Part shown: piece after piece, positions 3,635-5,018 of the stretch
Numbering within the stretch: position 1 is the stretch's first letter
Layout of the letters: each line of letters begins with the position of its first letter
Virus record (IMG/VR): IMGVR_UViG_3300044954_000123
Coordinates: 1 to 28,753 of that record
Reading direction: 5' to 3' (one strand)
DNA: 28,753 bases
Source of the DNA: a virus
Made by a program: the position numbers and the translations under genes
Notes under the pieces: model-generated
What the model was told of the DNA's origin: nothing
The model's input: the letters and a program-made list of their open reading frames with translations, nothing else
Database searches by the model: none

Positions 3635-4612
3635 GTGGGCGTTAAGCTGCCTTGGTTCCGGATGCACCCGAGCGACTGGCTGACCGACCTTGCGGGTGTC
3701 GACCTGCTCGTCGAGGGCGCGTGGATCCGGATCGTCTGCGAGATGCGCCGCTTGGGGGTTGGCACGCTCAGCCGCTCGACCGCGGCGTGGGCCATCTTCC
3801 TCGGCCTCCCGACACGGAAGGCCGCGACCGCGCTGCTGGTGAAGATCGGCAAGGCCGGGATCGGCGATGTCAGCGTCGGCGGTGACGAAGAGGTCACCGT
3901 GACGTCGCGCCGAGTCACCCGCGACCTCGTCACCGAGCAGCGCGAGCGCGACCAGACGGCCGAACGGACGCGCGTCTACCGAGGGCGAGCACGTGGCGGT
4001 GACGCTCCTGTGACGCATTCGTCACGACGCTGTGACGACGCTGTGACGCAGGAGAGTCAGAGTCAGATACAGAAGAAGACTCGCACCCCCAGTGCAACTC
4101 GCACGGTAACCGCGCACGCGAGCCCGCTCGGTGAGAGTCTCGTTCGACCGAGTCTGAGAGCGCAGGACACGCCACCACCGGCAGTCCGACGCATCGACGG
4201 CGGGCTCTCGTCGATCGGATCGCTGCTGGCAGGAATCGCGAGGTCGATCGGCGAGACGCGCGAACGAGAACAGGCCTGCGCGCCACCACACGCCATTGCG
4301 CGGCACGAATCGGCTCAGAGGTCGATCTCGACACCGCAACGCGCCTGCGGACCGCCAAGAGCGCCATACGCCATTCGGGATCCGATCGCACTCGCCGTTC
4401 GCGCCTGGCGCTCCGGCAAGTCACCCGCCGGGGCTGGCACCCACGGTCTTCACGTTGCGCTGCGCGCCGCCGCCCACGCCATCCGCGAGGGGCGCGAGCA
4501 GCTCAGGCTCTTCTGGCACCTGCTCGCCACGCCGCTGCGCGCATGGTGCCGCACCGCCGACGACGACCAGGCGACAGCGTGGATGCGCCTCGTCCGTGTG
4601 CGGGTCGCGTGA
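3635..4612 (+). CDS. phage replication initiator / replisome organizer (DUF1376-like N-terminus)
   Basis: The start is set at the GTG at 3635, which follows the purine-rich GGAGGGAAGGAAG, and the protein then reads VKLPWFRMHPSDWLTDLAGVD. This is the opening of DUF1376/replisome-organizer winged-helix proteins. The winged-helix part covers about residues 1-95, followed by a charged segment (RVTRDLVTEQRERDQTAERTR), a long Ser/Thr/Arg-rich disordered linker (about 115-250) and a helical C-terminal domain (about 255-325). Proteins of this type bind the phage origin and recruit the host helicase. The DNA of the linker contains five tandem 11-bp repeats (3999-4053), as expected if the gene carries its own origin, as lambda O does. 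The 325-residue length fits. Function is inferred from fold and context. Confidence 0.72.
   Translation: MGVKLPWFRMHPSDWLTDLAGVDLLVEGAWIRIVCEMRRLGVGTLSRSTAAWAIFLGLPTRKAATALLVKIGKAGIGDVSVGGDEEVTVTSRRVTRDLVTEQRERDQTAERTRVYRGRARGGDAPVTHSSRRCDDAVTQESQSQIQKKTRTPSATRTVTAHASPLGESLVRPSLRAQDTPPPAVRRIDGGLSSIGSLLAGIARSIGETREREQACAPPHAIARHESAQRSISTPQRACGPPRAPYAIRDPIALAVRAWRSGKSPAGAGTHGLHVALRAAAHAIREGREQLRLFWHLLATPLRAWCRTADDDQATAWMRLVRVRVA
3999..4053 (+). repeat. five tandem 11-bp repeats, candidate replication origin iterons
   Basis: Five copies start at 3999, 4010, 4021, 4032 and 4043, exactly 11 bp apart, sharing GTGACG (the third copy has GTCACG) with a frequent ACGCT ending. Copies 3 and 4 differ at one base. 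Eleven is not a multiple of three, so successive copies are read in different frames (for example ...RRCDDAVTQ...) and cannot be explained by repeated amino acids. One repeat per helical turn is typical of iterons bound by an initiator. A short direct repeat (GAGTCA at 4054 and 4060) and a visibly less GC-rich stretch to about 4080 follow, a candidate unwinding element. More GTGAC/GTCAC elements lie at 3882-3934, but there many coincide with Val-Thr codons. Confidence 0.75.
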
Positions 4613-4616
4613 CGCC

Positions 4617-5018
4617 TTGGCGAATCGCTCGCGCCTGACCGATCCGGAGTTCCGCGCGAAGCTCGAGATCGCGTTTCGCGCGCGCTCGGATGGCCACCTG
4701 TCCGTCCGGGCGGCCGCCAAGGTCGCGGCGATCCCTTGGCAGACGCTGCGGCGTTGGGAGAGGCGGCTGCGCAGCGACAGCGCGGCCCAGATCGAGCCGC
4801 CGGTTGCCACCCCTCGAGCCGAGGCGCTACGACGAGCGAGGCTGGCACGCAGTGCAGCCGCTCACGAGGCACGCCGCAAGCGGTCGATGGAGTCCTCGCG
4901 CTGCTGCATCCTGCAATGCTCGGCCTGCCTTGCGCGGGTGATGTTTGACGGCACCGACCGGTTCGACGTCGTCGCGCTGCCATACGGTGGCTGGGTGGCA
5001 CTCGCTCACCACTGCTAG
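4617..5018 (+). CDS. HTH protein with C-terminal cysteine motif
   Basis: The first sensible start in this frame is the TTG at 4617, five bases after the previous stop, giving a 133-residue product that begins MANRSRLTDPEFRAKLEIAF. Residues of the segment LSVRAAAKVAAIPWQTLRRWER form a helix-turn-helix (about 26-47). The C-terminal third has CCILQCSACLARV and a final Cys, a possible metal site. A longer frame exists upstream but it overlaps the replication gene and looks non-coding. It may be a transcription factor or DNA-packaging adaptor; its position just before the structural genes fits a late-gene regulator. No strong SD is visible. Confidence 0.6.
   Translation: MANRSRLTDPEFRAKLEIAFRARSDGHLSVRAAAKVAAIPWQTLRRWERRLRSDSAAQIEPPVATPRAEALRRARLARSAAAHEARRKRSMESSRCCILQCSACLARVMFDGTDRFDVVALPYGGWVALAHHC

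Follow-up and report, generated by a model that had tools for sequence, protein, structure and literature searches.

A helically phased GTGACG array inside a phage initiator gene: a probable replication origin with counterparts across initiator families

In a 28.7-kb stretch of viral DNA, we found that the gene for a putative replication initiator carries a helically spaced array of five GTGACG-type hexamers (iterons), followed by an A+T-richer tract with a 6-bp repeat, and that this array is maintained at the DNA level, beyond synonymous chance. Reading its sequence, we hold with good confidence that the array is the phage replication origin or its core. By analogy with lambda ori and SPP1 oriL, the site is very probably a theta-type iteron origin located within the gene of its own initiator.

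The window, i.e., the whole stretch analysed (28,753 nucleotides), is a linear fragment from an IMG/VR virus record (IMGVR_UViG_3300044954_000123) with genes in the order RecE-like exonuclease, RecT, RusA, initiator, and HTH gene, followed by those for terminase, portal, and major head protein. We identified no helicase gene within the 28.7-kb fragment. The contig end (28692-28753) is a low-complexity, GCC-rich alanine run that may mark an assembly break. The features of the initiator gene are as follows.

3635..4612, + strand: replication initiator gene (replisome-organiser-like), 325 aa, with a GTG start and GGGAGGGAAGGAAG upstream; from the ORF and codon-position GC
3635..3998, + strand: N-terminal winged-helix domain, residues 1-121, predicted from AF2, Foldseek, and profile links
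3882..3933, no single strand: three extra GTGACG/CGTCAC sites, at 3882 (+), 3899 (+), and 3928 (-); sequence reading
3999..4004, + strand: iteron 1, GTGACG; sequence reading
4010..4015, + strand: iteron 2, GTGACG, with codons for Val-Thr; sequence reading
4021..4026, no strand assigned: iteron 3, GTCACG, alternatively an inverted copy CGTCAC at 4020-4025; no in-frame TGA
4032..4037, + strand: iteron 4, GTGACG; sequence reading
4043..4048, + strand: iteron 5, GTGACG, with codons for Val-Thr; opens the conserved terminal motif
4043..4067, + strand: terminal motif GTGACGC-N3-AGANNC-AGANNC-AGA, common to other phage initiator genes; 1 match in the window, 0.00 expected
4049..4079, + strand: A+T-richer, purine-rich tract with the 6-bp repeat GAGTCA GAGTCA GATACA GAAGAA; presumed unwinding element

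The initiator gene and its array

The initiator shows a weak match to PHROG 9327 ("primosomal protein"), and its C-terminal half (4082-4609) has no PHROG match. In an AlphaFold2 prediction that included 47 relatives, residues 1-121 form a winged helix (pLDDT 90.5), comprising helices at 12-19, 24-40, 47-54, and 61-74, strands at 78-81 and 87-90, and a long helix at 92-121. The top Foldseek matches to this domain are winged-helix proteins (TubR, ArsR/MarR types, and ORC1), all with E > 0.001, and the protein is predicted to carry a DNA-binding winged-helix domain, which stops at base 3998, directly before the first base of the array. Among annotated proteins, the closest carry the names replisome organiser, replication initiator, or "protein O," and 13 of the 48 proteins aligned with the domain match the Pfam family Phage_rep_org_N. 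The window protein differs from this replisome-organiser family in having no Pfam match at all, including to PF09681 (Phage_rep_org_N) itself. Single-sequence searches recovered no close relatives of either the initiator or RecT, so that conservation inside the window's own lineage cannot be shown.

The iterons start exactly 11 bp apart throughout, and the sequence confirms the five repeats at 11-bp steps from 3999 given in a preliminary description of this DNA; TRF independently found a period-11 array at 4024-4048. The copy at 4021 reads GTCACG and differs from GTGACG by one base. Across the 28.7-kb window, the array is the top self-match at periods 7 to 24 (44 bp), with identities of 30/44. 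The five 11-bp slots give a summed match of 29/30 to a GTGACG ladder, which was reached in 0/5000 synonymous resamplings and 0/5000 synonymous permutations of the gene; among 300 Markov versions of the full window, the best ladder match was 23/30 and none reached 29. Lone GTGACG hexamers in the window show only a slight excess (46 observed versus 36.6 expected); thus, the signal is the phased cluster.

One helical turn takes 10 or 11 bp, neither of which is divisible by three, and iterons 1 to 5 fall in reading frames 1, 0, 2, 1, and 0. Iteron 3 is the sole copy in the frame where GTGACG gives a stop (xxG TGA CGx), and it is altered at exactly the position where GTGACG would create that TGA codon. 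The codon-position GC signature (frame 0) is strong at 3635-3880 and 4448-4612 and is suspended at 3998-4081. With mixed frames and no synonymous shuffle attaining the array, the initial view that the pattern is held at the DNA and not the protein level is borne out. A 33-bp duplication is also visible within the window.

The tract has GAGTCA copies at 4054 and 4060, correctly placed from the outset, and TRF detects AGAGTC x2.5 at 4053-4067. Positions 4050-4079, containing GAGTCAGAGTCAGATACAGAAGAA, are 57% A+T (versus about 33% overall) and 80% purine; the A+T enrichment is moderate, not extreme, and makes the tract a candidate unwinding element. As judged from the sequences compared, the iteron at 4043 and the tract to about 4073 form a single conserved unit. 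Hence, the extent first assigned, 3999-4053, holds for the repeats and not for the limits, the more so with the further sites at 3882, 3899, and 3928. These lie ~100 bp upstream of the array, inside the winged-helix coding part, and another GTGACG (4609-4614) overlaps the initiator stop codon, ahead of the HTH gene, which apparently starts with TTG at 4617.

Recurrence in other replication genes

An exact scan for three GTGACG copies in 2.9 million viral contigs recovered 102 loci with the copies 11 bp apart and at least 120 with a 10-bp step, compared with 6 at 13 bp, the sole control spacing; near-duplicates are included in all of these counts. A long ORF encloses the array at 59 and 69 loci, and the majority of such ORFs belong to phage replication-initiator families (PHROGs). 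In a set of 87 array ORFs, of which 85 come from these loci, the leading PHROGs comprise replication initiation protein, DnaD-like helicase loader, O-like, primosomal protein, and replisome organiser, with assignments detailed for ten proteins. The scan had suggested that the coding strand always reads CGTCAC; we rejected this rule as an artefact of the scan pattern, since three coding-strand GTGACG copies at 11 bp force a stop. Rescanning with GTCACG in the middle recovered 11 loci, and four of these (L230, L231, L235, and L237) show the window-type arrangement in a winged-helix gene, with the middle copy again in the stop frame.

The tract also recurs. In 105 array-bearing genes, A+T is 0.481 over the 60 bp 3' of the array versus 0.395 over the 60 bp before it (p=3e-9), and the 6-bp self-match is 0.394 versus 0.301 (p=2e-8). 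Purine richness was rejected as a general feature, being equal upstream and downstream across the same genes (p=0.52); the general features of the tract are A+T enrichment and 6-bp periodicity. The less GC-rich purine stretch originally described behind the array is therefore real in the window, and its A+T trend is recurrent, while its purine character is not general. The tract sequence itself varies by gene, being AGATACAGATACA in some and AGAGAAGAGAAG, CCTACAGTACAG, or others elsewhere.

The terminal motif, a pattern derived from other loci but with knowledge of the window sequence and hence not fully blind, has 47 viral matches, 32 of them with upstream iterons, and 22 matches in 85,000 cellular genomes, 3 of them with upstream iterons. 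At loci picked by this motif alone, successive GTGACG spacings of 10 (7 cases), 11 (8), 21 (5), and 22 bp (8) dominate. It is read in frame 1 in 20 non-redundant loci (xGT GAC GCx, e.g., DAPETETET) and in frame 0 in the window (GTG ACG CAG, peptide VTQESQSQIQ); by these sequences, what is conserved in the motif is the DNA and not the encoded peptide.

We also linked the window to this family through its protein. A search with the window domain across the 12,484 ORFs that the retrieved loci contain gave one convincing match, in L041 (E 1.5e-4). In this distant homologue (L041:4395-4865), the stop codon is the TGA of the array's first GTGACG, i.e., an iteron supplies the stop. Built from the window protein and six relatives of the first round, a profile recovered 62 further matches among 12,717 ORFs, and 61/62 are array bearing (Fisher p 3e-93); as arrays are present in three of the seed members, this result is a chain and not a blind test. 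Conversely, a reverse profile made without the window and L041 had as its sole match among the 279 window ORFs the window initiator (E 8e-6). By this reciprocal profile match, the window protein joins an array-bearing winged-helix replisome-organiser superfamily, a link whose individual steps score weakly (E 1e-4 to 1e-5).

A protein-only test used 24 new non-redundant genes selected by their winged-helix domain alone. GTRACG pairs at 10, 11, 21, or 22 bp occur in 19/24 of these, with 49 such helical pairs in total versus 1.39 expected from synonymous shuffles (n=500, maximum 7), and the commonest successive GTRACG spacing is 11 bp (24 cases). Non-helical control spacings gave 10 pairs versus a null of 0.6, an excess far below the helical one and expected, as the sites are clustered. 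The question of whether relatives keep the repeat and its period while residues vary can thus be answered in the affirmative, both from these domain-picked genes, which exceed synonymous expectation, and from the terminal motif, which is read elsewhere in another frame.

Seven loci of the 11-bp scan (L012, L024, L051, L052, L063, L085, and L101) have the array in another setting. In L051 (9547-9600) and L052, it lies at the 3' end of a large gene, which in L051 encodes a Toprim DNA primase, beside AGTGTTGAGATGACGCACC and an inverted copy thereof (roughly a 19-bp inverted repeat). The L051-type array appears to be the origin of a satellite or phage of the primase type. In phage-inducible islands (PICI), the 3' end of the replication gene is known to harbour the origin (PMC6092414), and this precedent, together with the arrays at primase gene 3' ends, supports an origin function for the repeat itself.

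Known origins and competing readings

Origins inside initiator genes are already known. In SPP1 oriL, direct repeats and an AT-rich unwinding element lie inside gene 38, the gene of the origin-binding protein gp38 (PMC6316719); in the lambda/Stx ori, iterons and then an AT-rich tract lie in mid-gene O, and extra iterons lengthen the protein (PMC7466680). The window shares with oriL the presence of repeats and an A+T-richer tract inside the initiator gene, a likeness of anatomy, and with the lambda/Stx ori the order of iterons and then tract in the middle of that gene. The parallel originally drawn with the origin inside lambda gene O is accordingly sound and applies to SPP1 as well. Relatives of the window protein are named replisome organisers, as is gp38. 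There are also differences: lambda has four iterons, each an inverted repeat (PMC7466680), whereas the window has GTGACG hexamers every 11 bp; the window protein, unlike lambda O, is unmatched to the Lambda O family in Pfam and PHROGs; and gp38 binding and replication were shown experimentally, whereas the putative window origin is read from sequence. Origins with a DnaA box and DnaA-trios have double-strand sites beside a short repeated strand-specific motif (PMC10797057). Double-strand sites adjoin a short repeated motif in the window too, although with another protein and other motifs, and a single-strand reading of its 6-bp tract is hypothetical.

Extrapolating from lambda and SPP1, we propose that several copies of the encoded winged-helix protein would bind the GTGACG iterons and, as these are one helical turn apart, line up on one face of the DNA. 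The bound complex might then strain and open the adjoining purine-rich, A+T-richer 6-bp-repeat tract (4049-4079), at which the initiator or a partner would load the replicative helicase. The site would be the phage's main origin, and its placement in the linker that joins the DNA-binding domain to the remainder of the protein would let the DNA stay fixed while the amino acids are free to vary. The cumulative GC skew, which had been put forward as a check, lends this reading no support: it has a maximum of low amplitude at about 4 kb, where a classical bidirectional origin has a minimum, and thus counts against an origin, with the opposite sign and weakly.

The alternative that survives best, which we nevertheless consider improbable, is that the array is an autoregulatory or copy-control site, used for self-repression or handcuffing by the initiator, with the origin elsewhere. 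Plasmid iterons often serve copy control, the array has the phased multi-site form typical of such sites, and three more GTGACG sites lie upstream in the gene. However, the array is located mid-gene, about 360 bp past the start, and an origin-like tract stands at a fixed 3-nt distance from it in many phages; moreover, in primase-type replicons the array stands where the primase gene ends (3'), the place at which comparable elements have their origins (PICI; PMC6092414). Distinctly less probable still is another DNA-level role, for instance as a site for recombination, packaging, or host-factor binding that accompanies replication genes. RecE/RecT/RusA genes are indeed next door in the window, and the origin role of the array is putative, but arrays lie inside the initiator gene itself across many initiator families, and helically phased repeats with an A+T-richer tract are the anatomy of an origin. 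A purely coding effect, with selection for a VT/RH/SR-rich linker peptide or slippage and the DNA periodicity as a by-product, might draw on the 33-bp duplication and on the similar linker peptides across array loci (RHxxVTxxS, VTxRHxxS), but is already contradicted and very improbable, given spacings of 10 and 11 bp that put the hexamer in all three frames, the synonymous shuffles, the DAPETET of most terminal motifs against VTQESQSQ in the window, the change in copy 3 exactly where a stop would form, and the loss of the codon-position signature within the array.

Named phages, distant homologues, and a possible common signature

Among named phages, helically spaced GTAACG-type pairs are present in Xanthomonas SAC (p 0.03), Staphylococcus SN10 (p 0.002), and Acinetobacter Silvergun (p 0.009); in Listeria A500, P. 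aeruginosa D14H, and Mycobacterium Huphlepuff, the tract is accompanied by a few GTAACG sites. Other named relatives have the tract only or neither, with few or no GTRACG pairs in several. A distant homologue (E 0.7, 24% identity) is encoded, unannotated, on a 3.5-Mb Sinorhizobium plasmid (L351:2417-3100); its linker has repeats around ATAGGG and then CAGAAACCAGAAACCAG at the position equivalent to the tract, with an 8-bp repeat CAGAAACC. A rule of GTGACG in all relatives was accordingly rejected, as named phages often have GTAACG or the tract only and the Sinorhizobium homologue has other repeats. These differing repeats suggest that the anatomy may extend beyond the GTRACG letters.

In the mycobacteriophage RepA replicons (Miko, Rachaly, and Jeeves), repA and its flanks suffice to sustain autonomous replication, with an origin presumed to lie "within or immediately adjacent to" repA; their authors found no repeats in the regions that they examined (PMC7157519). 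Some mycobacteriophage RepA-like genes, e.g., that of Huphlepuff, resemble the window in having the 6-bp tract and GTAACG sites.

An undescribed origin type, as had been suggested, is thus too broad a claim with respect to the kind of origin, which is that of lambda ori and SPP1 oriL. It may hold for the GTRACG helical array with its tract across initiator families, of which we found no description in the openly accessible full-text literature. We tentatively suggest, as a conjecture less probable than its negation, that temperate phages of Proteobacteria, Firmicutes, and Actinobacteria might share a common origin code, with GTRACG every 10-11 bp and a one-strand 6-bp tract at a fixed distance, embedded in linker codons across many initiator families (and at primase gene 3' ends), in which the initiator would read the tract single-stranded, like DnaA on DnaA-trios.

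To our knowledge, most temperate phage origins are unmapped. Papers often say of a phage origin only that it probably lies within or close to the initiator gene (e.g., PMC7157519), a gap that the present finding addresses: a signature that persists across reading frames would allow origins to be assigned in many phage genomes and opens binding and melting to direct tests. It also offers a clear case of a DNA signal that limits the amino acids of a linker, down to one base that avoids a stop codon.

DNA matches of the window to mycobacteriophages were rejected, being either not significant or not in a replication gene. Between two other loci, a mycobacteriophage and an unrelated viral contig, a 69-bp stretch in the C-terminal part of the initiator genes (L352:2001-2069 and L314:2071-2139) shows 83% DNA identity, which is unusually high at such a distance.
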